A stretch of DNA of 64,000 nt from positions 1-64,000 of the IMG/VR virus record IMGVR_UViG_3300036804_000259. One strand, 5' to 3'. Every line of letters starts with the position of its first letter. Position 1 is the first letter of the stretch. The stretch comes from a virus. The notes beneath the pieces were generated by a model, which did not search any database, was not told where the DNA came from, and saw only the letters and a program-made list of their open reading frames with translations. Both the position numbers and the translations under genes were made by a program. Below are positions 4,214 through 34,478 of this stretch, piece by piece.

Positions 4214-4555
4214 ATGACTGACGAAGAATTCCAAAAGATCCTGGCTGATCCTGAGATCCAACGCCTGATTAAGGCAAACGGATTGAAAGTGCCCATCTTC
4301 GACGACGATGATCCCTTCAACGAGCCACCAACAGCCAAACTGCAAATCGAACCACAAATCGACCCGCAGTTAGCTCGCCAGCTTAAGCAGTACCTCGCAC
4401 TTCAAGGTGGAGGAACCTTTGGTGAGCAAGTAGGCGCGAATCTCAATGCCGGATGCGCCCAATTAGCAGCCATTCTTGGCATTATTCTGTTGGTCGGACT
4501 CGGCCTGCTTGTCCTCGTAGCCTTCCTTTATGCGGTGGGCTCATCTCACCACTAG
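4214..4555 (+). CDS. C-terminally membrane-anchored protein (113 aa)
   Basis: The N-terminal 75 residues are soluble and acidic (IFDDDDPF; a Gln-rich stretch around 50-65). Residues about 85-108 form one long hydrophobic helix (LAAILGIILLVGLGLLVLVAF). The anchored protein follows another small membrane protein by 7 bases. Its stop TAG overlaps the stop of the convergent 617-aa gene on the palindrome CTAG (4552-4555). Function unknown; membrane-linked early or lysis role possible. Confidence 0.65.
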   Translation: MTDEEFQKILADPEIQRLIKANGLKVPIFDDDDPFNEPPTAKLQIEPQIDPQLARQLKQYLALQGGGTFGEQVGANLNAGCAQLAAILGIILLVGLGLLVLVAFLYAVGSSHH

Positions 4556-6405
4556 ACCTTGACGTAAGGATCTGCGTGATCAGCCCAATAAAAGGGCGTT
4601 CCCGGCGGGAGCCCATCCACGTGTTCTTGGTGGAATAGGTGCGCGACTGGCTGGCCTCCTACTATCCGAGTATCTGGGGAGCCTAACGGAGCACCCACCT
4701 CGCTATTACTCGGCAACTCGTCGGCACTGGCTCCGGAGAATATCCCCCATGGCTTTAGATGCAGCGTGGGATAGTCTTTTGGTGCAAAGGTAGGATTCAA
4801 TAGTTGTGGCCCCAATCCTGGCTGGCTGGCGTTGCCAATGGTTTCCGGCCCCTGATTGCCGATTGGCGCTTTGCTAGGCTTAGGCGCTGCTACGGGGGTA
4901 CGGTTAGGCTGCGCTACTGCCGGTGTGCGGCTAGGCGTAGCACCTGGTATAGCTGAAGGCTCGGGCGTAGCCTTTGCTATCGGAGCCGGCGCTACTTTCG
5001 TATTGTCGGCACCTTTATCGCCCTGCGGAGCCTGCGGTTCCTGAGAGCCAGGTGTTCCACGTTGATAGCCTTCGGTGATCCCTGACGATGCATTGGGGGC
5101 CTGCGCCGTTTTGACCACTGCTTCGACCCCTTTTTTGATCGCCTCGACTCCTGATACCATCTGCTTCGGATTATAGGGCTTCGTTTTCTGGATCCCTGCG
5201 TTGGCCATTGGCTCGAATTGTCCAACTGTATCGGTGGTAGTACCAGCTTGATTACCGGTGCTGGTGCTGCCTTGGTCGCCCGAGGTCGTCGTAGTTGGCG
5301 AGGTCACAGACTTTACGGATGCTCCGCCCGCTTGTTCGGGCAGTATCGGATCTGATTCCGTTACTGCGTGGCTCGGACCAAGATTATGTTTTTCAAGATC
5401 ATCAGCAGCATCGTTTCCCCATCCCCTAACTTCGTCACTTAATCGCATTCTCCCGCCTTCTGGACTGGCGGCATTGAGGACTTCGCTATGCAATTCTCGT
5501 TGAAGTTGCGCTTTTAGCAGTGGGACGTTCTCGTTTAGGGCATCAACATCGAAGTTGCCGCTAACAACTTTCTTTAGCGAATCTATAATTGGCCCTGAAA
5601 GGCCGGATATGGCACCTGCGAGAGGACTTTTAGAAATGAGGTCGAACAGTGGACCAGCAGATGTCGTTCCTCCTCCTTTCCCTTCTGGAGTAAGTCTATT
5701 AACGTCTACACCCAGTTGATTTAACCGCATCAGATCGCGTGTTAATCCGAGCATATTAGCACGCTCAGGATCTGGCGTGCCCCCAGGACGAAGAAAGTTA
5801 GCCAAATCAGTTTTACTATTTATCGCTGAAATAGCCTGCTGAAGCTTATTTAATCCCTGTGCTCCGTTAACGGCTTTAAATTTCGCCTCGATATCTTTGA
5901 GCAGTTCGATCGCGTCATGCGATTGGCCAAACATTCGCACGTCGTTAGGATTGGGAGCCACTGTTCTACCTGCCGCCTCATTCTGCGCCCTATAAGCTTG
6001 AAGCTCACCATAGCTTGCTTCGTTCAGGTCTTTGCCCCAGTTCTTATTCGTCAAAGGGTTTTGCTGCGGAAGCGTGCTTCGCAAGTGAACCATCGTATTG
6101 TGCATGTCTTCGCCGCCTAAATACCCTGAAACTTCCCCTTGCCGCGGATCCCAATAGGTAAACTTCATGGGATCTGTAGGATCGGCTCTCATCAGCACTT
6201 GCTGGCCATTAACATTGTGAACTTCCCAAGTACGACCTAGAGCGTCGGTGTGCATCGTGGCACTCCCGTCTTTGTTATGGAGGGTTGTCCCTAGTTGGTT
6301 ATCGACATACTTTCTGTATGTTTTATTGGAAGCAGCGATCGCTTCCGGACTTGCCTCATCAGGAAGTAACTTTGGAATTCGATTGTAACGATCTCCGTCT
6401 GCCAT
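4552..6405 (-). CDS. Large putative virion-internal/structural protein (617 aa)
   Basis: 617 residues without a recognised enzyme domain. The N-terminal half is mixed helical sequence, residues ~330-560 are low-complexity Thr/Ser/Pro/Ala linker, and the end carries LPPGTPFYWADHADPYVK, the phage terminal motif also present in the 259-aa protein at 418-1197. It is the last gene of the long minus-strand structural operon (20570 to 4552), 1 base after the previous stop. Position and composition suggest an internal or ejected virion protein, or an assembly factor (inference). Mass spectrometry of particles would settle it. Confidence 0.7.
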   Translation of the reverse strand: MADGDRYNRIPKLLPDEASPEAIAASNKTYRKYVDNQLGTTLHNKDGSATMHTDALGRTWEVHNVNGQQVLMRADPTDPMKFTYWDPRQGEVSGYLGGEDMHNTMVHLRSTLPQQNPLTNKNWGKDLNEASYGELQAYRAQNEAAGRTVAPNPNDVRMFGQSHDAIELLKDIEAKFKAVNGAQGLNKLQQAISAINSKTDLANFLRPGGTPDPERANMLGLTRDLMRLNQLGVDVNRLTPEGKGGGTTSAGPLFDLISKSPLAGAISGLSGPIIDSLKKVVSGNFDVDALNENVPLLKAQLQRELHSEVLNAASPEGGRMRLSDEVRGWGNDAADDLEKHNLGPSHAVTESDPILPEQAGGASVKSVTSPTTTTSGDQGSTSTGNQAGTTTDTVGQFEPMANAGIQKTKPYNPKQMVSGVEAIKKGVEAVVKTAQAPNASSGITEGYQRGTPGSQEPQAPQGDKGADNTKVAPAPIAKATPEPSAIPGATPSRTPAVAQPNRTPVAAPKPSKAPIGNQGPETIGNASQPGLGPQLLNPTFAPKDYPTLHLKPWGIFSGASADELPSNSEVGAPLGSPDTRIVGGQPVAHLFHQEHVDGLPPGTPFYWADHADPYVKV

Positions 6406-6406
6406 A

Positions 6407-7147
6407 TTAAGCTAATTGGAATTGATCCGGCTGCTGGAATTGAGGGACTGTCGGCCATCCTACCTGCTGATATCCAGGTTGTGAAATCGGGGCGTTGCTA
6501 ACTAAATTCTGGGCATTTGGATTAGGATTCGCGAAGGGGGCGGAGCTGACCCTGACCACAGTGGAAGGCAGATTATTTTGACCGCTGTTATCAAGCATCG
6601 CCGTAGAGAATCGATCTGCTCGGCTTTCTAATTCACTCTTTTGGGGAGCAGCATTTTGCGGAGGAGCTCCTTTTTGCGGAGGAGTGTTTTCTTGCGGAGG
6701 AGTCTCTTGGTTTGGTGGTCCCTGCAAATATTTCTCTGTGTAACCTGGAACATTTTGAAAGGGAAGGAATGGACTCGATGATTGACCCGTGGGGCTAGTA
6801 GTAATTCCACTTTGGATAAGCAGGCTTTGAATGGCCGCAGTTTTGTGCGCCGGGTCCATCGACTTATCAGCCTGAATCGCCTTAATTTGATTCTGAACGT
6901 TTTTAGCCTGCTCAATTTGAATCTGGGCATAAGCCTTCTGCAACGCGTTCTCGGCCCCTTCGCGAGGTAGCTTCGCCAGCGCGGAACCCATTTGGAGTCC
7001 CTTCTGCATGTTCTCAACAAAATCAGGGTAGTGGAACGCTGAAGCGACATTGAGCGGTGTGTTACCGCCGCCTACTATTGGTGTGATGAGATTCTGCGGT
7101 TGCAGCCGGGCTGGCAGGACTTCCCTAAATGGAGCTTGGAACGGCAT
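6407..7147 (-). CDS. Putative virion-associated protein with PPQ repeats (246 aa)
   Basis: The first 105 residues are helical (FVENMQKGLQMGSALAKL, ALQKAYAQIQIEQAKNVQNQ). They are followed by a PPQ/PPQK repeat stretch at about 142-170 and an Asn/Pro/Gln-rich tail ending FQQPDQFQLA. No recognised domain. It lies between two other operon proteins, 1 and 3 bases apart, downstream of tfuA. Likely an internal or minor virion component (inference from context). Confidence 0.68.
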   Translation of the reverse strand: MPFQAPFREVLPARLQPQNLITPIVGGGNTPLNVASAFHYPDFVENMQKGLQMGSALAKLPREGAENALQKAYAQIQIEQAKNVQNQIKAIQADKSMDPAHKTAAIQSLLIQSGITTSPTGQSSSPFLPFQNVPGYTEKYLQGPPNQETPPQENTPPQKGAPPQNAAPQKSELESRADRFSTAMLDNSGQNNLPSTVVRVSSAPFANPNPNAQNLVSNAPISQPGYQQVGWPTVPQFQQPDQFQLA

Positions 7148-7150
7148 AGG

Positions 7151-7966
7151 CTAATAACTCACATTCTGATTCGGAGAGAGGTTGGGCGGAACAAATGTCA
7201 CCCTTTGTGGAAGCGGAATGTTGCCAGGATTGTATTGGAAGTTCGGCTGGTTCTTCCCGAAGTTACTGATAGAACTCCCGAGGCCACTTAATATGCTGCC
7301 CCCCATTCCGCCGGCACCGCCAGCACCACCGCCTCCGCCAAACGACGTATTGGCTGCGTTGGCAGCGTCGATTCCCGGCGAAGAGGTCGCTACGCCTCCA
7401 CTAGTTTGCGCGGCCTGAGGCATTGTCGGCGTTGCTGGGCCGACTTGAGTATCTGGATTGAGTAAGGGAGCGTTAACCGGTGCCGATTGTTGCTGACCGC
7501 CTCCGAGCAAGTTCTGGAGCCAGCTTAGGAAGTTGAAGCCGCCATCTCCTCCGCTATCGCCGCTAAGAGGCTGGCCGACTTCGGGATTGTACGCCATCGG
7601 CGTCGCTGCGCTCCCTGACCGTGGGGCTTGCGCTGCCGCCAGCATCAGCCACCAGGGCAACACGAATTGATTGGCGGGCGAAACCGACTGGGCCGGCTGG
7701 CCGGGCGACTGTTCCTGAGTAGCTTGCTGGGGCACCGCGTAATTTGGCTGCGCAAATGCAGATGCATCTCCGCTCAGTGGTTGGCCGACTTCTGGATTCC
7801 GACTAACTGGAGGCAGTTCTGGCTCTTTCGCGCCAATTGGCGCTCCGATCGCCGGGTTTTGGGATACCGGGACCACGGCCGGGCCAGCGCGTCGAGCACC
7901 AGAGCCGTATTGTTGCTCCCAGCCTCGGCGGAAGCCGTCCATGGAGTTCTGCAAAAAATTCGGCAT
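7151..7966 (-). CDS. Putative virion protein with repeated NPEVGQPLSGD motif and Gly-rich segment (271 aa)
   Basis: The motif NPxxGxPLSGD occurs twice (about 51 and 128), with a related NPAIGAPIGAK copy at about 37. Residues ~100-112 are hydrophobic (FVLPWWLMLAAAQA), and residues 205-235 are very Gly-rich (SFGGGGGAGGAGGMGGSILS). Such Gly-rich, membrane-active stretches occur in ejection or fusion-like phage proteins, but this is only inference. It follows tfuA by 27 bases, so it is the first gene downstream of the thioamidation pair and one candidate substrate. Confidence 0.65.
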   Translation of the reverse strand: MPNFLQNSMDGFRRGWEQQYGSGARRAGPAVVPVSQNPAIGAPIGAKEPELPPVSRNPEVGQPLSGDASAFAQPNYAVPQQATQEQSPGQPAQSVSPANQFVLPWWLMLAAAQAPRSGSAATPMAYNPEVGQPLSGDSGGDGGFNFLSWLQNLLGGGQQQSAPVNAPLLNPDTQVGPATPTMPQAAQTSGGVATSSPGIDAANAANTSFGGGGGAGGAGGMGGSILSGLGSSISNFGKNQPNFQYNPGNIPLPQRVTFVPPNLSPNQNVSY

Positions 7967-7993
7967 GGAAGGGGAGAACCTCCGAGCCGGAGT

Positions 7994-9328
7994 TTATCCT
8001 TCAGTGCCGGCCTTGTCACGCAGCAACGCGACTGCGAGCTCGCGCAGCGTGCCGAATCCGTTCTCCGCGATGAAATCTTCGAGCGAAGCACTGATCGTCT
8101 GACCCGAGCTTTTGGCGTGCTGGAGCAAAAGACTGGAGACGTTCATTTCTTCAGCGAATTCCAATCCGATTTCGCCACCTTGCGATTCCAACAATTGCTC
8201 GTGCCTGGCCGCGGCGTTGCACCAATAAGGGTATTGGCCATTGAGTTTGAGAAGGTCTAGCAGCCTCTGGGTTCGGCGCCTCGGCCCGCAGCGCACCATC
8301 AGAGCACGACGCAATTTCCGGAGACGAATCTCTTCGCCCAATAATCGGTAAAGTTCTCTCGCGTTCATATGGTTATCGCGCAGGAAGCGGTCGTGCTCGG
8401 CTAGCGAACGCAGCCCCTTCTTGATGTTCATCCGGCGCCACTCGGCATCGAGCTCGGCCGCGGTAAAACCGATCCGGTAGATATCCGCTAGCAGCAATCC
8501 TAGTATCCGGTTGTCTGCGGCTTCGCTCAGTTCCTCGAACTCCTGACTGTGAAGCGAGACGAACGCATCGATATCCTGCAATTTTACTTGCCGGCCACCC
8601 ACCGTGACTGAGCGATCACGTTCGAACTGGGCGCTAAACAAAAGGGAGAGCGATTCCTCGGTCGGCTTGATTGCACCTTCGATTGGCTTGAGATCGCGAA
8701 ACGTGCAGAGTAACTCAAGCGCGTCGATCGCTTTCTGGTTATGAGCCTTAAGAACATCAAGGAGTACATCATTGAGGGATCCAAGCGACCGTTCAGTCCG
8801 TTCAGTCCAATGGATTGCTCCAGCCTGGGCGAAGATCTGCTCCGCGGTTTCCTCGTCAAATACTTCGTTTTCAAAGCCCTTGAGGAGCGCCCCTCGCACG
8901 TTAACCAAGGGGACCGTTGTAGCGAAGAGTGAACCGTCTGGGAGCGGAGCGTAGGTCGAGGCTACTTCGCTCTCATCGTGAATGACGCCTTCGTAGTACC
9001 ATTCGAAAATTTTGCCGCAACCGATCATGCCAAAATTAGCGATGTCGGCAGCTCGTAAGGCACCCATCGAACTCGCTCCGTAAACAGCCTTGACTCCAGG
9101 GATCTGAAGTGCCCATATCACCTCTTTGTGCCAGATACTCAGAGACTGGTGGAAGGTGCCGTCGATAATCAAGACGTGGCTCGGCTGCAACTCCATCAAG
9201 TCGCTAATGAAGTCGCCCTGTTTCAAGGGCGGCTTGATGATCGCCTCGGGCACCTGTTCACGGATCGAATCGTGATCAAGGCTGGGGCCGGCATAGACCA
9301 ATACTCGTTCCTGCTCAGTCGGTTCCAT
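7994..9328 (-). CDS. tfuA: TfuA-like protein, partner of YcaO (444 aa)
   Basis: The N-terminal ~170 residues are a clear TfuA core domain: VLIIDGTF at 52-59, AVYGASSMGALRAADIANFG at 81-100, then MIGCGKIFEWYYEGVIHDES. The rest (~175-444) is helical and resembles the C-terminal extension seen in bacterial TfuA proteins. In studied systems TfuA works with YcaO enzymes during ATP-dependent backbone thioamide formation (on McrA in methanogens, and in TfuA-type RiPP clusters), probably by helping deliver sulfur. The ATG lies 14 bases inside the 3' end of ycaO, so the two are translationally coupled. Finding this pair in a phage late operon is unusual. Confidence 0.95.
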   Translation of the reverse strand: MEPTEQERVLVYAGPSLDHDSIREQVPEAIIKPPLKQGDFISDLMELQPSHVLIIDGTFHQSLSIWHKEVIWALQIPGVKAVYGASSMGALRAADIANFGMIGCGKIFEWYYEGVIHDESEVASTYAPLPDGSLFATTVPLVNVRGALLKGFENEVFDEETAEQIFAQAGAIHWTERTERSLGSLNDVLLDVLKAHNQKAIDALELLCTFRDLKPIEGAIKPTEESLSLLFSAQFERDRSVTVGGRQVKLQDIDAFVSLHSQEFEELSEAADNRILGLLLADIYRIGFTAAELDAEWRRMNIKKGLRSLAEHDRFLRDNHMNARELYRLLGEEIRLRKLRRALMVRCGPRRRTQRLLDLLKLNGQYPYWCNAAARHEQLLESQGGEIGLEFAEEMNVSSLLLQHAKSSGQTISASLEDFIAENGFGTLRELAVALLRDKAGTEG

Positions 9329-10592
9329 CGGCGGCTTTAGCTACCTCCTTTTCCAGCCGTTTTTGAGCGCGGCCATTGGTCATCCAATTTTCGCACCAAG
9401 CCCCTTCCAATTGAGGAGCCACTGCTTTGACAATCGTAAGACTCGCGTTCGCGAATTCTTCGACCCGCAACACCCGGTAGTAAAGCTGATCGATTCCGCA
9501 GGTCGCTAGCCGACCCGTTAAAGCGCTGAACTCCTCGGCCAAATTTGCGAATTCGTAGCCGTCGCAAATGAACTGCCTCGCGAATTCAGGCCAGTTAGCC
9601 TTGAAGAAGGGCAGATTATTCAACGATGCGATAAGGCGCTTTGAACTGGACTGCTTCATTAAAATAAAATCACGTCGGTAGAGATCGTCACGGGCACCGG
9701 AGATGTAACAGAGTCGGCTCTGGACAGCTTCTGTGATCGCCCTCTGTGCTGCCACTCTCGGGTTCAGATGAGCCCCGTAGCCGCCGAAAAAGCCTACATT
9801 GTCACCGCCGAATAAGGCGCAGCCAAGCACGGGAATGCCGAGGTCGTTTTCTAAATAATGCAGAAACGGGTAAAGGCCGGCTTTCCGGATCAACGAAATA
9901 GACCACTCCAGTTCGGGAGGCAGATCAATCAGCGGCACCCGAACCGGAAGCGTTCCGACTAACTCCCGCACATACTGGTTAATGGTCCAGGCGTCTCGTT
10001 CGACCAGTTCATAGAAAGCCTGCAAAAGTGCGTCCTCCAGAGTGATGCCGCTCGCGAGGCCATTGCTGGATTGCTGCACATCGAGAAACTGTTGCCTGGC
10101 GCGGTCTTCCAGCCAGATCATATGCGAAGGCATCCAGACGGTGCTCGCAAATCCTGGTCGAATGATGACCTTCTCGACCAGCTCCCAGGCGATCGGCGTG
10201 TCCTCGTCAAGGACGTTATCTCTGGCCAGCGGATAGGCTTCCAGAGGCAATAGATCACTTGAATCCCGGTTCTGTTGTAGCTGCCGGTGACTGCAAAGCT
10301 TAAACTCTGAATTCGGATTCTCAGCGGCCCAGAACTCGAGCCCTTCGATGATCGAGCCGGCGCAAGCCAACCGGTCGTAGGCATTCTTGCCGGCCGTCAC
10401 CGAAATCGTATGGGCGTCCGGTCGGTGACAAATCCAAACCGGAATACCAATTACGTCGAGATTAGTAATTTGCCGGTAGGAAGTGATGCCGTAGGAGAGG
10501 AGCCGGGAGTACGGTAGCCGGCAGATAGTTTCGGCTAGCTGAGTCCTAGCTTGAGAGCGAGCCTCGTTGCCCAAAAAAAGCAGGCGATCCAT
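9315..10592 (-). CDS. ycaO: YcaO-domain ATP-dependent (thio)amide-modifying enzyme (425 aa)
   Basis: A full-length YcaO protein. Residues 34-69 carry the family start (YGITSYRQITNLDVIGIPVW, then a GK). The ATP-site motifs follow: EGLE at 83-86 (the usual ExxER reads ExxEF here), a second ExxER at 194-198 (YELVERDAW), and TEAVQSR at 286-292 with GARDDL at 298-303. YcaO enzymes phosphorylate a peptide backbone amide with ATP; with TfuA the known product is a thioamide. The gene starts directly after the stop of the 285-aa protein (10593) and overlaps tfuA. It may be complete and active apart from the F replacing R in motif 1. No short precursor peptide is visible nearby. Confidence 0.96.
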   Translation of the reverse strand: MDRLLFLGNEARSQARTQLAETICRLPYSRLLSYGITSYRQITNLDVIGIPVWICHRPDAHTISVTAGKNAYDRLACAGSIIEGLEFWAAENPNSEFKLCSHRQLQQNRDSSDLLPLEAYPLARDNVLDEDTPIAWELVEKVIIRPGFASTVWMPSHMIWLEDRARQQFLDVQQSSNGLASGITLEDALLQAFYELVERDAWTINQYVRELVGTLPVRVPLIDLPPELEWSISLIRKAGLYPFLHYLENDLGIPVLGCALFGGDNVGFFGGYGAHLNPRVAAQRAITEAVQSRLCYISGARDDLYRRDFILMKQSSSKRLIASLNNLPFFKANWPEFARQFICDGYEFANLAEEFSALTGRLATCGIDQLYYRVLRVEEFANASLTIVKAVAPQLEGAWCENWMTNGRAQKRLEKEVAKAADGTD

Positions 10593-11450
10593 TCAAGGGA
10601 GGGTAGCGTAATTCAAGCGCCAAGTCGCTAGATCCATCAATATCCGTACTAGCGGCTTAAAAGAGGCGTGCGCTTCGAGCCAGCAAGCTGCCTGCGCTCC
10701 GTAGCGTTTGTAGAGCTTTCTGAGCGTCCGTGGAGCTCGGGCAATCATCCAGTAGCGGAATCGCTTCCATCGTGGGTCGTAGGCTCCGTAGGCGGAGCGG
10801 GCGAGCCAGCAAAAGGCGACCACGGCAAGTGCAGAGACGGCGCTGCCGGCACCGCTCAGAATGTTGCCGGTTTGCGCGTTGGCCGCGTTGGCCGACATGA
10901 CACTTTGTTGTGCCGCCATGTTTTCGGCGAACTGGCTCTCTTGGACCTTGTAGGCGTAGTTCGCCTGGTTCCAATTGTTTTGGCCGGCAATGTTGGAGAG
11001 CGCGATTTGCGAAGCATCCGCGCCGGAGAGGCCGAAAGTCCTCGGACGGAAAGTATCGTTAGCAGTCTGAAATTGATTCATCAGCTGCTGCTGATATTGC
11101 ATCTGGTTCAGCCCCAGATTGCGGGCCACGTTCGCCATCCCGGTTGTGCCGGTGCCAAGACTCCAGCCGCCCGTGGCGCCCACCGCATTGGTCAGTCCGC
11201 TGCGCGTCCACAGATTTTGCAATTGGGGAGTAACCGCTCCGCCCATCTGCGTTTTGAGATTGTTCAGAAACGTCTGTTGCGAACTGTAAAGCTGCGGATA
11301 GCGGGACTTAAAATCGGCGTCGCTCAGACCATAGGCGGTCGTGTCCATGCCGGTCGCAGTCTGCTCGATCTGTTGCGGATTAGCCGGAACGAAAGCCGGC
11401 ATGGCTCCTGGCAACTGCGGTTTTGGGAGGGATGGAGCGGTTGTCGACAT
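10593..11450 (-). CDS. Putative virion-internal protein with conserved C-terminal FCWLARxxYG domain (285 aa)
   Basis: The N-terminal two thirds are Gln/Asn/Ala-rich helices (NLGLNQMQYQQQLMNQFQ, NIAGQNNWNQANYAYKVQ), then a small hydrophobic Ala/Gly stretch (GAGSAVSALAVVAFC). The C-terminal ~70 residues hold FCWLARSAYG, PRWKRFRYWM and LYKRYGAQAA, a domain I know from the ends of phage tail or internal proteins. Such proteins are typically virion components that may be ejected. It is directly upstream of ycaO (no bases between stop and start), making it the strongest positional candidate for a YcaO-TfuA substrate (inference). Confidence 0.7.
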   Translation of the reverse strand: MSTTAPSLPKPQLPGAMPAFVPANPQQIEQTATGMDTTAYGLSDADFKSRYPQLYSSQQTFLNNLKTQMGGAVTPQLQNLWTRSGLTNAVGATGGWSLGTGTTGMANVARNLGLNQMQYQQQLMNQFQTANDTFRPRTFGLSGADASQIALSNIAGQNNWNQANYAYKVQESQFAENMAAQQSVMSANAANAQTGNILSGAGSAVSALAVVAFCWLARSAYGAYDPRWKRFRYWMIARAPRTLRKLYKRYGAQAACWLEAHASFKPLVRILMDLATWRLNYATLP

Positions 11451-11827
11451 CAGGTTACCTCGAAAACCTTCAGGTCTTGCTCTACGAGTCCGACCTTACG
11501 CAGTAACTTCGGCGAAGCCAATACGCTTTTATCGTGGACCAACCAGAGAGGGTTCCCGAACATTCGCGTGGTCTGAATCGCTACTTTTGCGACCTCGTAA
11601 AATTCGCGGGCGCTCATCACATTCGGATGAACCGTTGGCCTGATACAAACGTGTGGGGTTGCGTAATAGAACGCGACCGGTTTGCCGTCCAATCTGAGCA
11701 TGAAGATCGGAAAGACCGGTTCAAGCTTATGCTCGCAAGCCTCTGCTAATGAGACTAGCCCCCAGAGCTCGGCCGCATGCAGATTGTTGATCCGCACCTG
11801 GTCTATTTGGAGTACCGATCCACCCAT
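11450..11827 (-). CDS. Hypothetical protein, possible acyltransferase-like fold (125 aa)
   Basis: 125 residues of alternating helices and strands (FPIFMLRLDGKPVAFYYATP, then NPLWLVHDKSVLASP). The pattern is loosely like a GNAT acetyltransferase core without a clear acetyl-CoA loop, so I do not assert that function. Its end overlaps the start of the 285-aa gene by one base. It belongs to the structural operon just above the ycaO-tfuA pair; small phage proteins here often help fibre or tail assembly. Confidence 0.6.
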   Translation of the reverse strand: MGGSVLQIDQVRINNLHAAELWGLVSLAEACEHKLEPVFPIFMLRLDGKPVAFYYATPHVCIRPTVHPNVMSAREFYEVAKVAIQTTRMFGNPLWLVHDKSVLASPKLLRKVGLVEQDLKVFEVT

Positions 11828-11967
11828 AGTTTTGTTCGCAACTGAGCCTCGGCGAAATTGATATTCGAGCGCATCTCAGGACCGTGGAGTTCGAGTTCGC
11901 GCTTCGAGTAAGGCCGGCTCCTCACTCGGATCCACCACCAACGCAATTTTCTTAAGAGCGTTTTCAT
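11803..11967 (-). CDS. Small basic protein (54 aa)
   Basis: I choose ATG 11967 because it forms an ATGA overlap with the stop of the tail-collar gene at 11964; the upstream in-frame ATG at 11997 would lie deep in that gene. The N-terminus is very basic and Trp-rich (LLRKLRWWWIRVRSRPY). The rest is helical. The 3' end overlaps the next gene by 25 bases. Function unknown. Confidence 0.6.
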   Translation of the reverse strand: MKTLLRKLRWWWIRVRSRPYSKRELELHGPEMRSNINFAEAQLRTKLWVDRYSK

Positions 11968-12779
11968 TGGTATTTGATGATGTGCCACATGGTGCAAAAA
12001 GGTGGCATGATACTGAATTGCTGCTGACCCGGTCCCAATGGTTTACCGGTCATGTCCCGTATCGGCAATGTGAAATAGGAAATCGAGCCGGCACCTGGCG
12101 GCTGCAAATTCGGAATGTCGGTCCCAGGCAAACTAGGTGGATTCGCATTCGCGTAGTTCGGAAACGAAATCCGGATTGGCACCATTAATCCCGGCAGATC
12201 ATTCCCAATCAGAAGACGGTTCAGTTGACTTCCGCCGACACTCGCGACTCCGCTAGGATTGGCGGTAGCCGGCGGTTGACCAGGAGCGGTGGGAATCGAA
12301 CCAAGAGCGACCTCTTCCATAGTCGTAAATCCCGCGGCGTTGAAGAAAATGCAGGCACCAGGAGGAAGATTAAATGACGTCTCGCCGTCGCCCGGCCCCC
12401 AAGTTTCGCCTACCGCCTGAAATAGCCGGCTATAGGTGTATCTAGAAACCCATCTTCCATCACAGAGTAGCCAGTTGGCCGGCTGCGAATTACCGCCAAA
12501 AAGCGTGATTGTACCAACGGCCGCGCCCTGTTCGCCCGGCTGATATTGACCGGTTGTAGGATCAAACCACCACCATTCATTGCTGGAAGTATCGAACCAG
12601 GGACCGATATCGTGTACCGGCTTGCTTGAACCAACTTGGCCGATCAGAAAAGACTGCTCTAATTGGCCGGCAAGCGATTGACCGAGCAAATTGAAAAAGT
12701 CCGGCAAATAACCGCCCCAGCCTTGGGGAGCAGCCGACACGGTCAGATCGACAAAATCAGTGGGGATTGGCACCGCCAT
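11964..12779 (-). CDS. Tail-collar domain fibre protein, paralogue 3 (271 aa)
   Basis: Residues ~85-140 match the phage tail-collar domain: GTITLFGG, then PANWLLCDGRWVSRYTYSRL and FQAVGETWGPGDGETSFNLP. The C-terminus ends PPFCTMWHIIKYQ, like the IIK ending of collar-type short fibres. An N-terminal segment (FVDLTVSAAPQGWGGYLPDF) is shared with the two genes just upstream, which have the same plan. The three form a tandem paralogous set, probably trimeric short fibres or receptor-binding tips of the tail. Confidence 0.85.
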   Translation of the reverse strand: MAVPIPTDFVDLTVSAAPQGWGGYLPDFFNLLGQSLAGQLEQSFLIGQVGSSKPVHDIGPWFDTSSNEWWWFDPTTGQYQPGEQGAAVGTITLFGGNSQPANWLLCDGRWVSRYTYSRLFQAVGETWGPGDGETSFNLPPGACIFFNAAGFTTMEEVALGSIPTAPGQPPATANPSGVASVGGSQLNRLLIGNDLPGLMVPIRISFPNYANANPPSLPGTDIPNLQPPGAGSISYFTLPIRDMTGKPLGPGQQQFSIMPPFCTMWHIIKYQ

Positions 12780-12783: not shown

Positions 12784-13506
12784 TCACAAATATTTGATTA
12801 CGAAATTCGCCGCGGCGAACGGAGGCATTACCGGTATGCGTTTTTGGTTAGCCCCAAGAATGTTGCCGTTTTCATCCACGACAGGGTAGTAGTAGCCGCC
12901 GCTCCCAGCTCCTTGGGTATTGGGAACGTTGAGGTTGTTATCGATCATGTCCGCGCTGATGTAGACCAAATCGACTTGTAACGCCGGCATTGCATCAGTG
13001 GGAATCACAGTGGTCTGCGCACCGCCGCGAGCGTTGATACCCCACACGGGAGAACTACCAGGTGGCTGAAAAAAGAACCCTGGTACATTTACGAAAAAGA
13101 CGGCCGGCGGAGGCAACAGGAAATTACTGCCTGCCCCTCCCCAAGTATGACCGATGGCTGCAAACAACTCTGGATAGGAATTAGAACTAAGCTGCTGCCC
13201 TGCGCATACCATCCAATTATTCGGAATGTTACCCTTACCTCCCCAGATTGCCACCGTGCCAATCGGACAACCCTGAACGGTAGGGTTATATCCGTAACCG
13301 GTCCAATAATACCACTCAGTACCATTTAGCCACGGCCCAACGTTAGTGCTAGGTTTGTTCCCTCCGATTCGCCCAGTTAACAAACTAACGCTCATCTTTC
13401 CCTCTAAAGACGAGGCGATCAGATTTAGGACATCAGTCAAATAGTTGCCCTTAAAATTCGCTGGCGGCGGATTAATCGTGATATCGACTGGAACAGGAAC
13501 GGCCAT
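12784..13506 (-). CDS. Tail-collar domain fibre protein, paralogue 2 (240 aa)
   Basis: Second of three paralogues. It keeps the N-terminal attachment region (INPPPANFKGNYLTDVLNLI), a collar core (GTVAIWGGKGNIPNNWMVCA, SYPELFAAIGHTWG) and the PPFAAANFVIKYL ending. The receptor-facing middle segment (about 135-215) differs from its neighbours. That is expected if duplicated fibres diverged in specificity. It starts 2 bases after the previous stop. Confidence 0.85.
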   Translation of the reverse strand: MAVPVPVDITINPPPANFKGNYLTDVLNLIASSLEGKMSVSLLTGRIGGNKPSTNVGPWLNGTEWYYWTGYGYNPTVQGCPIGTVAIWGGKGNIPNNWMVCAGQQLSSNSYPELFAAIGHTWGGAGSNFLLPPPAVFFVNVPGFFFQPPGSSPVWGINARGGAQTTVIPTDAMPALQVDLVYISADMIDNNLNVPNTQGAGSGGYYYPVVDENGNILGANQKRIPVMPPFAAANFVIKYL

Positions 13507-13508: not shown

Positions 13509-14324
13509 CTATTGATATTTAATTATATGATTAGCAGTGGCAAAAGGAGGCATAGTCGGGAACTGACTTTGATCGGCAGCTAACACATTTAACTGGGCGC
13601 CTTCTTTGCTCTGCACCTGGTAATTGTAAGCTTGAACTGAAGTATCGCTGTAGGGAACAGGTAATCCGACTCCGGCGATTCCCGGCTGTTGTTTTTGCGC
13701 GTTTATGAACGGCACCAGCAATTGCATCGGCGGCAAATTAGCCGCGGTTAGCAATGGTGCCAATTGCGAGCCACCAATGCAAGCCACTCCGTACGGAGCG
13801 GAGGTTACTCCGCTTACCGGTGCGCCCATTCCAGGTGGCACATTCGGAGATAAGACCACCGATGGATCAGGAACAAAGCCGGGAGCATTTATAAAGGCGA
13901 CTCCGCCAGGCGGTAACTTGAAGGTGGTGGAATAATCACCTGAGCCCCAGGTCGTACCGATCACCTGAAAAAGCTCTTGATAGGTCGTTCGCGAAACTTC
14001 GCTTCCGTCGCAAACCAGCCAATTTGCGGGCGTCGATTGCCCACCCCACATCATGACAATTCCAATAGGGACGCCATCCAAGCCTTGGACGTAAGCGCCT
14101 TTCTGCGGATTCCAAAACCACCAAGAATTCCCGTTTGACCACGGCCCTACGTCTGCGCCCGGCAAAATCCCGTTTAATTGGCCAAAGATTAACGCGCTCG
14201 TGTCGACAGAGGGATCGAACTTCGCCGCTATCGAACTGCCAATCGCATTGAGCAATTCCTGCACGCTCTCAGGTTTAACCTTAGGTTCTTTCTCAACATA
14301 GAAAGCGATTGGATAGGAGGCCAT
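13509..14324 (-). CDS. Tail-collar domain fibre protein, paralogue 1 (271 aa)
   Basis: I start at ATG 14324 (MASYPIAFYVEKEPK), 2 bases after the stop of the upstream gene; an earlier ATG at 14342 would overlap it. The collar core is clear: GIVMMWGGQSTPANWLVCDG, TTYQELFQVIGTTWGSGDYS. The end is PPFATANHIIKYQ. The set of three sits directly after the 482-aa fibre protein, so all probably belong to the same distal tail structure. Confidence 0.85.
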   Translation of the reverse strand: MASYPIAFYVEKEPKVKPESVQELLNAIGSSIAAKFDPSVDTSALIFGQLNGILPGADVGPWSNGNSWWFWNPQKGAYVQGLDGVPIGIVMMWGGQSTPANWLVCDGSEVSRTTYQELFQVIGTTWGSGDYSTTFKLPPGGVAFINAPGFVPDPSVVLSPNVPPGMGAPVSGVTSAPYGVACIGGSQLAPLLTAANLPPMQLLVPFINAQKQQPGIAGVGLPVPYSDTSVQAYNYQVQSKEGAQLNVLAADQSQFPTMPPFATANHIIKYQ

Positions 14325-14326
14325 AA

Positions 14327-15775
14327 TTATTGGCGAGCCCAACTCATCGAGAAAGTTAATTGCAAAGTGCCTAACGGCGCCAGGGCGTGCGGTTGATCAA
14401 AATAATAGGTATCGATTTGGTTAGTCGTATCGGGAGTGCCATAGCCGAAACTCAACATATAGAGTCCGGTTTGGTCCATGGCGATGGTGCCGCTCTGGGT
14501 CAGATTAAAACTGCCCGAGACATAGCTACTTGGCAGACAGGGCGCAACAAAGATCTGCTCCGTCGGCGCCGGGATCCGAGTAGGACTGCCGTTTGTGCCC
14601 ACGGAGAGGCCTCCTGCGGTCGAGAGCCAAATTTGGCCGGCAACACTCGGTTCGTCGTAGCCGACGAATATATCGGCCGTGGGGCTAGGAGCTGCGCTTT
14701 GGCCATAGGGATTGACAAGAAAAATGCCCTGGTTACCGCGGAAAAACCATCCGTTCATGTCGACATTGAGCGTGCCGCCGGTCGGACTCGCGCTACTCAC
14801 AAAGGTGAGTTGTAGACTGACCGTGGTTGATGGGCCGTGCGTCGAATCGGTAAACGTGGACCAATCCAATACTTTCCATGTCCCGTTATAAGGCGCGTAA
14901 CTAGAGCCGGCCAGGACAAGCGTGCTGCCGGGAATGACCGGCATCGTGCCGGAGACGGTGACCGCGAGTTGATTTAATTGGGTTGAACTGGAGAGGTATT
15001 GCCAAATCGAGTAACTGATCGGCAAATTGCTGATGCTGATCGTCAGCGGCGTATTAGGAAAATAAGGAGAAATGACTCCTGGCCCCTGGCCATAATCGAA
15101 ATTGACCTGGAGTTGATAAGTGACCTGCAATTGTTGGCCATTCGGAAGTTCATCACTCGGGCCTTGCAAGATTATGGGAGCAGTGAGAAGCACCCGGCTA
15201 AAAAGATTCGCTCCGCCAACCGATTGCGGTGAGAACCCTAGCTCGGTGTAAGTGATCCCAACCGATTCGGGCGTGAAGAGGAAGGTTCGATAGAGCGTGA
15301 TTGAACCTAAGGCGACATTTGAACCGCAGGCACCCGGTGTAGTGAGATAATCAACGGTCCGTTTAATCTCGTTGCCCAGTACGGCTTGATTGACGTACTG
15401 GACCACGAAGTGCGTCGCCGTTGATATGGTCAGGCTTATCGAAAGCGTGACCTGGGTCGGACTTACGTAGGCAATGATTTTCGCGATTTGGCCAGTATCG
15501 AAAACTACGTTCGCGGCTAAATCTCCGGTGCTAAAGCAGGCGGTGGCCGCGGTAAGAGCGGTGCCGGCAACTGTCGCAGTCGTCGCCGGATCGCGGGTGG
15601 TAGCCTGCGTGCCGGTGCCCACAGCGCAAGCTGCAAAAAGCTCATTGTAAAGAGTGGAGGCAACATAATCTAGTCCCTGATCCAGAATGAGATTGTCTTG
15701 CCAAGGTCGCGTCTCAATCAACTTGCCACCGGCTCGGACCGCGACTTGCACTCTACCTTTTAGTTGCGCATTCAT
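14327..15775 (-). CDS. Phage tail/fibre protein with NLILDQGLD N-terminus (482 aa)
   Basis: Beta-rich, low-charge protein. Residues 20-60 carry PWQDNLILDQGLDYVASTLYN and a following CAVGTG, a signature of a widespread phage tail family in which similar segments precede fibres. The C-terminal part repeats short beta motifs and ends LQLTFSMSWARQ. No catalytic residues recognised. ATGA-type overlap with the 81-aa gene upstream. A structural fibre or baseplate-like role is likely from composition and position. Confidence 0.75.
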   Translation of the reverse strand: MNAQLKGRVQVAVRAGGKLIETRPWQDNLILDQGLDYVASTLYNELFAACAVGTGTQATTRDPATTATVAGTALTAATACFSTGDLAANVVFDTGQIAKIIAYVSPTQVTLSISLTISTATHFVVQYVNQAVLGNEIKRTVDYLTTPGACGSNVALGSITLYRTFLFTPESVGITYTELGFSPQSVGGANLFSRVLLTAPIILQGPSDELPNGQQLQVTYQLQVNFDYGQGPGVISPYFPNTPLTISISNLPISYSIWQYLSSSTQLNQLAVTVSGTMPVIPGSTLVLAGSSYAPYNGTWKVLDWSTFTDSTHGPSTTVSLQLTFVSSASPTGGTLNVDMNGWFFRGNQGIFLVNPYGQSAAPSPTADIFVGYDEPSVAGQIWLSTAGGLSVGTNGSPTRIPAPTEQIFVAPCLPSSYVSGSFNLTQSGTIAMDQTGLYMLSFGYGTPDTTNQIDTYYFDQPHALAPLGTLQLTFSMSWARQ

Positions 15776-16017
15776 GCCGTATAAGTGCCGCTTTTAAACC
15801 TGGTTGAGCAGCCAACCGCCGCGGCCGCTCCGCTGAGAGCCGTAGCAGCAAAATAAGCTCCGCTCGCCAAAATCAGGCTAGTGTTGAGCGTCTCGCTGAT
15901 CAGCGGTACTAACACGATCGGACTTGGCGGGATCGTGAGTCCCAAAGAGTCATACCCACTATCTGGCGTCCGCGGGCTCCAAACTTTCTGGAAGGGTTGA
16001 AAGATTCTCGCTTTCAT
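15772..16017 (-). CDS. Small tail-module protein (81 aa)
   Basis: 81 residues. A basic, aromatic start (MKARIFQPFQKVWSPRTPDSG) is followed by an Ala/Ser-rich hydrophobic stretch (SGAYFAATALSGAAAAVG) that could be a membrane or packing helix. It overlaps both neighbours by 4 bases, between the 629-aa hub-like protein and the 482-aa fibre. Unknown role, probably tail assembly. Confidence 0.68.
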   Translation of the reverse strand: MKARIFQPFQKVWSPRTPDSGYDSLGLTIPPSPIVLVPLISETLNTSLILASGAYFAATALSGAAAAVGCSTRFKSGTYTA

Positions 16018-17903
16018 GTTGCGGTGATCGGAGCAACCGGGATTGCACAGACTTTCGGCGGCGGCAAACAGCCGATCGCGGTAACGATATTAGTCTTATC
16101 TTCTTCGCTTGGAGTGCATTGGCCTATGCCGGCTTGCGGATAGGCATCGACAAAAAGTCGGACTTCCCGTATACCCATCCGACCTTGCCAATTGATCAAG
16201 AGCTGGAATCCCTTGTCGACATTGTGAATGTATTTGCTCTCCACTTCGCAAGTGTCGGCACAATTGTCGTTTTCGGCCTTTGCTCCGCTGAACTCTGGCG
16301 TCCGGATCGTGCGTGTCTGTGGCTTGAAAGTCTGGATAAGAGTGTCGGTAGTGAGCCCTTGACTCGTCCAAATCGGATAGTTCGCATTGCCCGGCAGACC
16401 TTCCTCCGCCGAAAGCAGTAACTCATAAGCGAGCCGGTAATGACCTTTGATGCCGGCGTAGTAAATCTGAATCGTGACATTGCCGATTAGTTCTACGATA
16501 TCGATCTCCGCATATTTGAAACGCGAGAGCTCGCCGACTTGACTGACCTCGAAAATTTTGGTTTCCCAACTGCAAGCGATCGGCGTCTCGTTATAATCAA
16601 CTCGCCGGCCGATGAAATCTTCCCAGAGCATAATGTTGCACGTCTGCCCATGCGAATTCACGACTGGGTTACAGGCGTAGGAAAGCTCAAAGCAGCGCGG
16701 TACGTCTTGGATCTCGCCGGTTGCGAACTGAACTGGATAGGTGCCAGTCCAGATGCCGACCCAGGCCGGTGGCGGACTCGCTTGTTGCCCTTGCATGCCT
16801 GATGCTACGCTTCCGTCCATCACCCAACAGTGGCGATTCCATCGGCTTCCGCTCGGAACGGCAACGAGCATAAAGTTCTCGAAGTTGACCGCGCAAATCC
16901 CGCGTCGGTCCGGAGACATGTTCATCTTCGAACGCAACATCTCGCCGTCCTGCGGCGTGACCTGGCTTGAACGATATTGGTTGTAAGCCATATCGAAACT
17001 GACCAATCCAACCTCGGAAAACATCCAGGGTTGGCCGAACTGTTGCAGAGGCGAAAAAGGAGAGACGCTTCCGTAGTCCTTCGAGACAATGATTTGAAAA
17101 TTCGGCGTATTCTGCCAAGTCGTTCGATCCAGAATGCCCGATTGCAGACCGGTCACCGAGAAAGGAGTGAAGGCGAGCAAGGATGGCATGCTCTGTGACT
17201 GCGGATCGCCCGGCGTTTCCAGCAAACCGGTACAGCTTTCCGGCAGTTTGAATCCATCGGCCTCGGCCAAATACGTGCCTTCGGTGAAAGAATTCGGATT
17301 GAGAAGATCACTCGCGTAGATGGTTTCGTTATAGGCCACCCAGAGCCTCGAGCCGGAGTAGACCATCATCTGTCCAGTCGGCAATTGATACCACGGTGCG
17401 CCGGCCTGATTATGACCACTCTGCTGTGGCGCCGTGGTCGAGGTCGCGGTATAAAACGCACTCGCAGTGTAACCGTCCTGCATTAGGAGCGTATCGACCG
17501 GAGTGGGGAGCAAGGTTAGACTTCCGTCTAAATTTAGTTGAACGGCTTGTCTGGCCTGACAGAAATAGATTCGCGGACTGTATCTGTAAAAACTGACGTT
17601 CGGGAGTTGGACGTAGGTCGTAAATGGATAGACCGAGAAATAAATGTTGCCGTCGATCGACCAAACGAGCTGCTCCTTTTGTCGGTATGGTCGGTAAATA
17701 CAGAGGCCTTGAGCGCGTTTACCCGGCAGCATGAAAAGCAGGCTTCGACCTGGTCGCGTTTGCATCACGCCCCCGCGGTTCACCAAATTTTCGGACCAAT
17801 TATAGCCGCCTTGGCCTATATCGGTTGGAGAAACCAGGGTGTTGCACCCTCGAATCCAAGAACGGTCTTGAACCGGTACACGGCCAGTTTGGGGATAGGC
17901 CAT
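16014..17903 (-). CDS. Tail/neck hub-like protein, beta-rich (629 aa)
   Basis: The N-terminus (NWSENLVNRGGVMQTRPGRS) and several repeats spaced through the protein (LWVAYNETIYASDLLNPNSF, PSLLAFTPFSVTGLQSGI, NFENFMLVAVPSGS) match a phage tail family. Its members look like beta-propellers and lie next to fibre genes. It is mostly strands and has many cysteines for a phage protein, including CADTCEVESKYIHN near residue 560. It probably forms the neck or hub to which the fibres encoded downstream attach (inference). It is preceded by a 142-base gap containing a hairpin. Confidence 0.72.
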   Translation of the reverse strand: MAYPQTGRVPVQDRSWIRGCNTLVSPTDIGQGGYNWSENLVNRGGVMQTRPGRSLLFMLPGKRAQGLCIYRPYRQKEQLVWSIDGNIYFSVYPFTTYVQLPNVSFYRYSPRIYFCQARQAVQLNLDGSLTLLPTPVDTLLMQDGYTASAFYTATSTTAPQQSGHNQAGAPWYQLPTGQMMVYSGSRLWVAYNETIYASDLLNPNSFTEGTYLAEADGFKLPESCTGLLETPGDPQSQSMPSLLAFTPFSVTGLQSGILDRTTWQNTPNFQIIVSKDYGSVSPFSPLQQFGQPWMFSEVGLVSFDMAYNQYRSSQVTPQDGEMLRSKMNMSPDRRGICAVNFENFMLVAVPSGSRWNRHCWVMDGSVASGMQGQQASPPPAWVGIWTGTYPVQFATGEIQDVPRCFELSYACNPVVNSHGQTCNIMLWEDFIGRRVDYNETPIACSWETKIFEVSQVGELSRFKYAEIDIVELIGNVTIQIYYAGIKGHYRLAYELLLSAEEGLPGNANYPIWTSQGLTTDTLIQTFKPQTRTIRTPEFSGAKAENDNCADTCEVESKYIHNVDKGFQLLINWQGRMGIREVRLFVDAYPQAGIGQCTPSEEDKTNIVTAIGCLPPPKVCAIPVAPITAT

Positions 17904-31416: not shown

Positions 31417-32796
31417 ATGGCCGATCCGCGAGTTACTAATTCCATTCCGCGCACGGTCGATACCAACATGAGTATCACCAGCGCTGAACAAAGCCTGGCA
31501 CTCGATAAGGCTTTTGACGACGCGTTCGGCAGCATGGGCGAAGGCCCGAAAGAAACGCCGCCGCCAGACGAAACAAAACCGGCCGAACCCGAAACGAAGC
31601 CGGCTCCCGCTGAAACAAAACCGCCACCAGCTGAGACAAAACCGCCAGAACCTGAAACAAAACCGGCCGAGCCGGCGCCAGGAGCTAAGGTTGAGGCACC
31701 AAAACCGGTCGAAACTCCGCCAGGAGTTAAGGTTGAGGCCACGCCGACAGTCCATCCTGACGACGAACCCGATCCTGAACTCGATGCGATTCGGCTCCAT
31801 CCGGATTCGCGACCCGAGACGGTCGAAGCGTTCAGGAATTTGCGAGGTGCGGCCAAAACCGAGCGCAAGCTCACCAAGGAGCTACGCGAAAAAGTTCAGG
31901 CTCAAGAGAAGGAACTCGCAACCTCTCGTTCGCAGGTGCGCCCAGTCAGCGATCCACAAGTCCAAACGGAGTTGGAGACACTGCGCAATTTTCATCAGAC
32001 GCATAGGATCTTTGATGACTCGAGTTTCCAATCCCAATACGAACTGCCGGTGCGCTCGATCTTTGACGACATCATAAAAGATGTCAAATCGATGGCGAGC
32101 GACCAGGGCGCAGCGGACCAATGGGAGAAAGAGATCCGAGCCGCCGGCCCTGACAAACTGGACCGCGCTTATTGGAGCCAGGGCGTCATTAGCCAATGCG
32201 ATGACCCGCTCCAGCGCGACCGGCTCACGCGCAAAATCAGTACGCTGCTCGAGGCTCAAGACAAGCGGAATGAATTCCGCGAGAAGATGGTTAACGAGCC
32301 CAACGCGTACGACGCGTGGCAGCAGGCGCAGGTCGCGACTTACTGGAAACAGTTCGGAGATGAGGCTGCGGACGAAGTGAAAAAGTTGTTGCCCGAAATG
32401 GGCGACTGGGCAAGCGAAAGAGACTTGGCTCTTGCGAAATCGGCGCAAGAACGGACCGCCTGGGAATCGCACAATAAGACCTACAAAGAGTACGAAGGCC
32501 TCTTTCAACAACTGCTCACTGACGCAGCGACCCAAGGTCCGCGAGGCATGACTCGAGTCGCAGCTCGGGCCACGATGGCTGAACATTATAAACGCGAACT
32601 TGCCTCGAGTCAGACCCAGCTAGAAAAGATCAAGGGAGAGCTCGCGGCCGCGCAGGAAGAGCTTAATAAAATCGCGAACGCTCGCAGCAAAGTGAATGCC
32701 TCGAGCGGCACATCGACCGGTGCAAAAGACACGCCTCGGCGCCGGATCGGTCAAACAGTAGACGATGCCTTTAAGGAACACTTCGGCACCACATGA
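31417..32796 (+). CDS. Candidate capsid scaffolding protein (459 aa)
   Basis: Residues ~45-115 are a Pro/Glu/Lys-rich repeat (PETKPAPAETKPPPAETKP). Two long charged coiled coils follow (about 140-185 and 395-440: KIKGELAAAQEELNKIANAR). This acidic, Pro-rich, coiled-coil composition next to the portal is typical of phage scaffolding proteins, which guide capsid assembly and are later removed. Other options: a minor head protein or a DNA-binding assembly factor. No protease was recognised beside it. Confidence 0.55.
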   Translation: MADPRVTNSIPRTVDTNMSITSAEQSLALDKAFDDAFGSMGEGPKETPPPDETKPAEPETKPAPAETKPPPAETKPPEPETKPAEPAPGAKVEAPKPVETPPGVKVEATPTVHPDDEPDPELDAIRLHPDSRPETVEAFRNLRGAAKTERKLTKELREKVQAQEKELATSRSQVRPVSDPQVQTELETLRNFHQTHRIFDDSSFQSQYELPVRSIFDDIIKDVKSMASDQGAADQWEKEIRAAGPDKLDRAYWSQGVISQCDDPLQRDRLTRKISTLLEAQDKRNEFREKMVNEPNAYDAWQQAQVATYWKQFGDEAADEVKKLLPEMGDWASERDLALAKSAQERTAWESHNKTYKEYEGLFQQLLTDAATQGPRGMTRVAARATMAEHYKRELASSQTQLEKIKGELAAAQEELNKIANARSKVNASSGTSTGAKDTPRRRIGQTVDDAFKEHFGTT

Positions 32797-33623
32797 GCAC
32801 TGCACCGTCACTTGAGTTGAATCCACTGCCAGAGGCTCCGCCGGACGCTCCGCAGTGGCATAACATCGATTATACGCAGTTCAGCATGTCTTATCGTAAG
32901 CCGGCTTACCCGGTCACGATCATGATGCCGTATTTGGACGGGATCCGCGGTCCTGTCGTCGCCAGCATGCTTTATTACGCGAAGCATCTAGATGTCGGGT
33001 TTGAATTAGTGGGCAACACTGTGATTGCCTCGGCTCGGAACGAGTTAGCTGACCGGTTTTTGCGCTCCAATGCGACCTGGTCTTTTTGGGTAGACTCAGA
33101 CGTTTTCCTGCCTTTCGGCAATGCGGATGCTTTCAATGCTTACACGTCTACTACCAAGGGCCGGCAATTCACCGAGCACAACGCGCTCGTGCGTCTGTTG
33201 TCCCATAAGCAGCCTCTAGTCGGCGGAGTTTATGCCGGACGTTTCAAGCGCTCGCCATTAACGATTCAGCCGGACCTAGCGCCAAGAAATCCGAACGATT
33301 CCCGTATCAGTCAAAGTTTGCGCGAAGGCAATAATGCCGGAGGCTTGCAACCAGTCGATTGGATTGCTGCCGGCTGCATGCTCGTCCATCGAAAAGTGTT
33401 CGAAAAGATCATGGAGACGCAGCCGATCGAGCCGCGTTTTAAAAAAGATTATTATCCCTTTTTCACTGCGTTTCCTGATACGCCAGGACACGAAGACATC
33501 GCCTTTTGCACACGAGCCAAAGAGGCTGGAGCGCAGCCACTCTTGGATACTGAAGTGCGATGCGGACACATCGGATTGTCCATGTTCTTGTGCGAAGATT
33601 CCGAACCGCCGCCCAAACGCTAG
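32793..33623 (+). CDS. Glycosyltransferase, GT-A type (276 aa)
   Basis: A phage GT-A-like transferase: VIASARNELADRFL, then FWVDSDVFLP with the metal-binding DSD at 101-103, VDWIAAGCMLVHRKVF, and CTRAKEAGAQPLLDTEVRCG, a pattern in which HIG near the end closes the active site. It would move an activated sugar to a phage or host target, such as glycosylated virion proteins or host surface polysaccharide. It starts by ATGA overlap from the scaffold candidate gene, i.e. it is in the head operon. Confidence 0.85.
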   Translation: MSTAPSLELNPLPEAPPDAPQWHNIDYTQFSMSYRKPAYPVTIMMPYLDGIRGPVVASMLYYAKHLDVGFELVGNTVIASARNELADRFLRSNATWSFWVDSDVFLPFGNADAFNAYTSTTKGRQFTEHNALVRLLSHKQPLVGGVYAGRFKRSPLTIQPDLAPRNPNDSRISQSLREGNNAGGLQPVDWIAAGCMLVHRKVFEKIMETQPIEPRFKKDYYPFFTAFPDTPGHEDIAFCTRAKEAGAQPLLDTEVRCGHIGLSMFLCEDSEPPPKR

Positions 33624-33697: not shown

Positions 33698-34408
33698 ATG
33701 CAACCGTTCTTAGCTCTTATTACTCCCCTTGCTCAACCCGCTGAACCTCCCGGCCTCTGGCCACCGGGTGGCGGGATCGAAGCGCCGAGTCATCCCATCG
33801 CTCCTGGCGGACCGCCGCCGCAAGTCTGGCCCGGTCCCGGAGCTCCTACGCATCCCATCGCTCCGGGTGGACCACCGCCAGAAGTCTGGCCAGGCCCCGG
33901 CTATCCGGCGCACCCGATTGCACCCGGCGGACCGCCGCCTGGAATCTGGCCAGGGCCAGGGGCTCCTGGTCATCCGATCGCACCCGGTGGCGGACCAAGT
34001 CATCCCATCGTGATCCCGCCAGACGCTATTGCGCCTGGGGTTCCAAGTCATCCCATTTATTTGCCGCCGCCAGTCCCAGGTCATCCGATCGTAATCCCGC
34101 CAGAGTCGATCGCTCCCGGCGTGCCCGCGCACCCGATTGTGCTCCCGCCAGCAACACCTGAGCACCCGATCGTAATTCCGCCTGATGCCATCGCGCCAGG
34201 AGTGCCAAGTCACCCAATTGTGCTGCCGCCGGGATCGCCCGAGCATCCGATCGTGCTTCCGCCGACAGATCCCTCAACGCCAGAGAATAGCTTCACTGTC
34301 GCGGTCCGAAACAATGCAACCGGAGAGGTTAAAACGGTCACCTTCGTTCCCGGTGATCCATCAATTCCTGGTGCCCAGCCGCCGACAACTCCTGGGCCAA
34401 AAGAATAG
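33698..34408 (+). CDS. HPIAPGG/HPIVIPP Pro-rich repeat protein (236 aa)
   Basis: I start at ATG 33698 (MQPFLALITPLAQPAEPPG); upstream frame has no promoter-like support. Four copies of HPIAPGGPPP-x-x-WPGPG are followed by three copies of a related HPIVIPPDAIAPGVPSHPIV unit. The C-terminal ~45 residues look globular (NSFTVAVRNNATGEVKTVTF). This repeat family occurs in many phages, often beside head genes, with unknown function; it may be a fibrous or capsid-decoration protein. A perfect terminator follows. Confidence 0.8.
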   Translation: MQPFLALITPLAQPAEPPGLWPPGGGIEAPSHPIAPGGPPPQVWPGPGAPTHPIAPGGPPPEVWPGPGYPAHPIAPGGPPPGIWPGPGAPGHPIAPGGGPSHPIVIPPDAIAPGVPSHPIYLPPPVPGHPIVIPPESIAPGVPAHPIVLPPATPEHPIVIPPDAIAPGVPSHPIVLPPGSPEHPIVLPPTDPSTPENSFTVAVRNNATGEVKTVTFVPGDPSIPGAQPPTTPGPKE

Positions 34409-34435
34409 TTGTTCCGTAGCTAGACAGCGATACCA

Positions 34436-34475
34436 GAGCCGCCGCTTTTTACTAGGGGAAGCGGCGGCTCCTTTT
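34436..34475 (+). terminator. Rho-independent terminator
   Basis: GAGCCGCCGCTT (34436-34447) and AAGCGGCGGCTC (34459-34470) form a perfect 12-bp stem with an 11-base loop, followed by CTTTTCTT. It separates the head operon from the secreted beta-helix gene, but the next ATG lies only 9 bases past the stem, so read-through or a leaderless transcript may be expected. Confidence 0.88.
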
Positions 34476-34478
34476 CTT

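Follow-up and report, generated by a model that had tools for sequence, protein, structure and literature searches.

The window analysed here, positions 1 to 64,000 of the IMG/VR virus record IMGVR_UViG_3300036804_000259 (64,455 base pairs in all), comes from an uncultivated bacteriophage and carries on its minus strand an adjacent pair of genes for YcaO and TfuA, enzymes of the kind that cooperate in backbone thioamidation. The pair lies within a run of genes in the order p629, p81, a tail-fibre-like gene, three genes of collar/fibre type, p125, p285, YcaO, TfuA, p271, p246 and p617 (Table 1). The TGA stop codon of p285 directly abuts the ATG of YcaO, the ends of YcaO and TfuA share 14 bases (9315-9328), and 27 bases separate the stop of TfuA from the ATG of p271, as given in a preliminary description made from the DNA letters; in addition, the overlap has a ribosome-site-like AAGGAGG upstream. 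That description had also placed virion-type genes on either side of the pair, and tail-collar/fibre-like proteins are indeed recognised among the flanking genes by Pfam and PHROG; the first collar gene (11964-12779), for instance, matches Pfam Collar at 1.2e-16 together with PHROG tail families. The presence of a conserved phage YcaO-TfuA pair inside a tail/ejection-type operon is thus well supported, and the gene content suggests that the operon is expressed late.

Both proteins belong to the families to which they had been assigned, with scores far above the Pfam cut-offs. The PF02624 profile aligns with YcaO over its positions 2-325 of 325 and scores 156.7 bits (cut-off 25.7; E=1.2e-45), and TfuA matches PF07812 (E=7.9e-33, 113.2 bits against 30); NCBIfam agrees on the families, with scores below the McrA-specific cut-offs (TIGR03266, 124.3 against 365; NF033432, 135.7 against 235.2). 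The residues aligned to E75, E78, E199, E202, R203, R286, E290 and Q293 of Escherichia coli YcaO, which form the site for adenosine triphosphate (ATP) and Mg, are unchanged in all 20 phage sequences. Among them E198 of the phage enzyme aligns with E. coli E202, the residue replaced in the E202A mutant control of PMC13063428. An AlphaFold2 model of TfuA (predicted local distance difference test, pLDDT, 86) matches in its N-terminal half the solved thioamidation TfuA 6xp8 (Foldseek E=4.3e-13, template modelling score 0.80 by target), and the helical C-terminal part gave no significant PDB match with Foldseek. A SurA-like nature of this C-terminus, raised by a single weak Pfam hit (E=0.074), was rejected as the structural search gave it no support. 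One Ser (S87, within SMGALRA) and one Lys (K199) are invariant across 25 TfuAs and appear compatible, by alignment, with the Ser-Lys pair reported for TfuA (PMC13185837).

The best PDB relatives of both phage proteins are those of the methanogen system that acts on a glycine of McrA (MJ1094, 6pe3/6peu; TfuA, 6xp8), in which the two genes are likewise adjacent and the substrate is a protein, with no precursor peptide. The phage system differs in that its scores lie far under the McrA-specific NCBIfam cut-offs, the phages have no McrA and the phage TfuA has an extra helical C-terminal part of ~230 amino acids (aa). By analogy with such systems, the pair very probably makes thioamides. Enzymes of the YcaO family also form azolines and amidines, and the helical C-terminal domain of the phage TfuA, which has no PDB match, could bind a polypeptide, so that a related backbone reaction, or a role mainly as an assembly chaperone, might take the place of thioamide formation; this is improbable, since the invariant ATP/Mg-site residues of YcaO and the invariant Ser and Lys of TfuA favour catalysis. 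The sulphur carrier is presumably that of the host, because searches that gave matches in most control genomes detected neither ThiS nor ThiF in seven phage records, which may be incomplete.

Related contigs were gathered with a YcaO query, which yielded three viral contigs, and then with queries on YcaO, TfuA, p285, p629 and the putative capsid protein. Conserved neighbours of the pair, which the preliminary description had proposed to look for, were found in these relatives: p285 precedes YcaO in 23 viral contigs, among them the window, from at least five lineages, namely six of group A (the group of the window), fourteen of group B and one each of L081, L123 and L115. Four contigs in group B are near-copies, which leaves ~20 independent ones. 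TfuA follows YcaO in all but two, and those two end there. Only in L106 does another gene, HNH-like (7502-8041), separate p285 from YcaO; two further contigs end inside or at p285, and no contig with a complete p285 region and without the pair was found among those collected. The order p285-YcaO-TfuA was also recovered in contigs retrieved with p285 as the query. The pair occupies the equivalent position in 22 other viral contigs, far more than chance would produce. The outcome that the preliminary description had regarded as contrary to its reading, the pair at unrelated positions together with a consistent short precursor, was looked for and was not observed.

Groups A and B have in common the putative terminase, portal, scaffold and capsid proteins, p714, p629, the collar proteins and a helicase, and therefore constitute one deep phage clade. 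The phage YcaOs (n=13) form a single clade (support 99/100) whose stem measures 1.15 changes per site and which is separate from the TfuA-linked YcaOs of bacteria, a sample collected with a TfuA query; a tree of p629 and p714 separates groups A and B in the same way. Ratios of non-synonymous to synonymous substitution rates among close group B relatives (0.05-0.08 for YcaO and 0.08-0.11 for TfuA) indicate strong purifying selection. Together, the single clade, the matching phage tree and the low ratios imply that the pair is old, has been kept with the phage lineage and is maintained at the protein level. Bacterial pairs with the same gene order do exist, many of the YcaO relatives being on rhizobial plasmids, and could suggest that the phages recently took up the pair from a host, as an auxiliary metabolic gene unconnected with the virion. 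This explanation is largely refuted and hardly tenable: the YcaO tree and the identities speak against recent capture, the phage YcaOs being a single clade on a long stem and the bacterial relatives only 27-43% identical, and the pair has an identical position in all lineages. The best bacterial match, L011, was also considered as a mis-binned phage and rejected, its neighbours being bacterial chromosomal genes.

Searches with tblastn of named phages (50,697 records) gave no match for YcaO, TfuA, the putative portal, the putative capsid or p714, and only weak matches, to annotated terminases, for the terminase. An undescribed phage clade is marked out, with core proteins that are almost without relatives in the named phages. 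The genes called capsid, portal, scaffold and ejection protein gave no useful match in Pfam, PHROG or the PDB and are so named, putatively, from position and conservation; p629 has no family match in Pfam or PHROG. A viral TfuA has already been deposited, as the structure of A0A6J5NWG3 ('COG3482', uncultured Caudovirales phage, in BFVD) matches the phage TfuA at E=3.3e-18, but that protein has 332 aa and is deposited as uncharacterized. A census of TfuA clusters makes no mention of phage (PMC8120280), and no description of a phage YcaO-TfuA system was found in the open-access literature, which agrees with the preliminary description; this is provisional, the collections being incomplete.

The persistence of the pair at the same spot through deep divergence suggests that the phage chemically modifies a protein of its own particle, and two neighbours, p285 and p271, had been put forward as substrates. 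They fared differently: p285 is favoured because it is strictly linked to the pair across lineages, whereas p271 is of low complexity and poorly conserved (40-46% identity in only part of group A, marginal in group B). In the N-terminal ~210 aa of p285, 18 positions are invariant in 20 sequences from lineages A, B, L123 and L115, among them R137, G140 and G143 in a stretch R-x-[FY]-G-[LIF]-[GS]-G (137-143), which from its conservation is a plausible candidate thioamidation site. The C-terminal domain of p285 is shared with gp25 of Puniceispirillum phage HMO-2011 (hhalign 99%), which is similarly placed, with tail-fibre genes on one side and genes for large proteins downstream; however, no YcaO or TfuA lies beside gp25, and no match was seen for the other core proteins tested. 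HMO-2011 was dropped as an outgroup, this domain being the only part in common. As the C-terminal domain is absent from L002 and L115, it was ruled out as an essential partner, and the modified site, if p285 is the substrate, should lie in the N-terminal region. The AlphaFold2 model of p285 is poor (pLDDT 45).

Several observations weigh against modification of p285. Its N-terminal region barely aligns in L081, the most divergent lineage, which disfavours one fixed site. Its restriction to the clade is equally strong for other core virion proteins and is therefore not specific evidence, and an operon assembled together could by itself keep the gene order. No close relative without the pair was found for a comparison of p285 with and without the enzymes.

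Bacterial YcaO-TfuA pairs are mostly assigned to clusters for ribosomally synthesised and post-translationally modified peptides (RiPPs) (PMC8120280), and in several rhizobial and rhodobacteral loci a precursor-like gene of 67-90 aa adjoins ycaO immediately upstream, in the slot that p285 fills in the phages. Clusters for thioamidated RiPPs, both those of thioviridamide/thioamitide type and the proteobacterial ones described in PMC8120280, resemble the phage loci in that ycaO and tfuA adjoin in the same order and in their thioamide-forming enzymes; they differ in that the phages have a full-size virion-type gene in the upstream slot and no precursor-like short gene. Such precedents speak for a small thioamide-bearing peptide that would serve as a RiPP-like toxin, signal or protectant, its precursor being encoded elsewhere in the phage or the host, but this appears quite improbable here. 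Across the phage loci examined, as already remarked for the window in the preliminary description, no precursor-like short open reading frame is adjacent to the pair, consistent or shared in position; the small proteins common to groups A and B resemble other families, and in the window no transporter or protease gene stands beside the pair. Short open reading frames between YcaO and TfuA in L002 and L010 were considered as precursors and discarded, since other contigs do not share them. A full-size neighbour is not unique to the phages, because in L011 and L020, the bacterial loci nearest the phage clade, tfuA is followed by a conserved ~430-aa protein (9360-10673 and 8665-9960, respectively; 40% identity) with an HExGH motif and no Pfam match.

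The foremost alternative to a phage substrate, though an unlikely one, is that the pair is made, or packaged and injected, to thioamidate a host protein (such as a ribosomal or envelope protein) and so alter the infected cell. Bacterial proteins can be targets, as E. coli YcaO acts on uL16 (PMC13063428), and the pair is located among ejection-type genes, the products of which may reach the inside of the cell. The E. coli enzyme shares the ATP/Mg residues and acts on a whole folded protein; YcaOs of the uL16 type are, however, very acidic (isoelectric point, pI, 4.4 in E. coli), have ~586 aa, including an additional TPR-type region, and are not associated with TfuA (PMC13063428), whereas the intact phage YcaOs have 395-427 aa and pI 4.8-6.5 (~425 aa and pI 5.3 in the window) and always have TfuA adjacent. 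Moreover, an early host-modifying role would need no such long stay beside p285. Thus, uL16 is disfavoured as a host target, and other host proteins are possible.

The preliminary description had set modification of a phage structural or ejected protein beside that of a host protein. The conserved pair in a tail/ejection-type operon favours the former, a host protein being less likely, and we put the probability of backbone thioamidation of the phage's own virion or ejection protein, p285 being the first candidate, at roughly 0.5. Under this reading, YcaO and TfuA would be produced together with the tail/ejection-type proteins and, by analogy with characterised enzymes, YcaO would phosphorylate a chosen backbone amide using ATP. 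TfuA may release sulphide from a thiocarboxylated ThiS-type carrier of the host via a Ser/Lys pair (S87/K199 proposed) and hand it to YcaO, converting the backbone C=O to C=S, the putative substrate being the first ~210 residues of p285, the product of the gene just upstream of YcaO.

Backbone thioamidation of a whole protein by YcaO is established in nature for just two targets (PMC13063428), McrA (PMC5589413) and uL16 (PMC13063428). It is a more tentative proposition that a deep tailed-phage lineage thioamidates its own virion or ejection protein, which would be the first protein-thioamidation system of a virus and, after these two, a third whole-protein class, fixed in the core assembly programme. 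If true, it would show that particle or ejection proteins can benefit from the modification, for example through stiffness, protease resistance or membrane passage; the phage would offer a small system for learning what a thioamide does, and the protein substrate range of YcaO would be widened.

Table 1. Features of the YcaO-TfuA gene run in the window and precursor-like genes of bacterial loci.
Feature	Coordinates	Strand	Description	Evidence or conservation
p629	16014..17903	-	structural-type; head of the gene run	65-72% in group A, all group B genomes
Tail-fibre-like protein	14327..15775	-		phrog_4176, 3.3e-14
Three consecutive collar/tail-fibre-type genes	11964-12779, 12784-13506, 13509-14342	-		each is conserved in groups A and B
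p125	11450..11827	-	conserved; travels with p285	groups A, B, D, E; no Pfam match
p285	10593..11450	-	virion/ejection-type protein; leading candidate substrate	directly upstream of YcaO
YcaO	9315..10592	-	425 aa; ATP-dependent backbone amide activation enzyme	PF02624; intact
TfuA	7994..9328	-	444 aa; N-terminal TfuA domain and helical C-terminal domain	PF07812, Foldseek 6xp8; intact
p271	7151..7966	-	low-complexity; second candidate substrate	downstream of TfuA; partial conservation
p246	6407-7147	-	putatively ejection-type; downstream of p271	position and partial group A conservation
p617	4552-6405	-	putatively ejection-type; downstream of p271	position and partial group A conservation
Precursor-like gene	L014 4020-4223, L025 6510-6782, L027 6541-6744, L029 6521-6739, L023 6502-6768		upstream of ycaO	conserved

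Some further observations were made in the window and its relatives. Searches of the PDB with p125 gave only insignificant hits, one of them an acetyltransferase. Large proteins encoded in the run share a terminal signature of the form 'LPPGTxFxW', found at the C-termini of the products of 4552-6405 and 418-1197 in the window and in several lineages (L073, L075, L076). Three genes (32793-33623, plus strand; 58550-59452, plus strand; 59769-60527, minus strand) are conserved in groups A and B and lie near capsid-type genes in group B; one of them has a weak glycosyltransferase-like match (Anp1, E=0.008), and the trio is possibly a second virion-modification system. Two large proteins (52596-55925, minus strand; 34185-36056, plus strand) contain glycoside hydrolase 42-like and pectate lyase-like stretches and are perhaps depolymerase-type tail proteins. 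A strongly conserved 64-aa membrane protein with two hydrophobic stretches is encoded at 45708-45902 (minus strand), and its gene adjoins capsid-type genes in group B.
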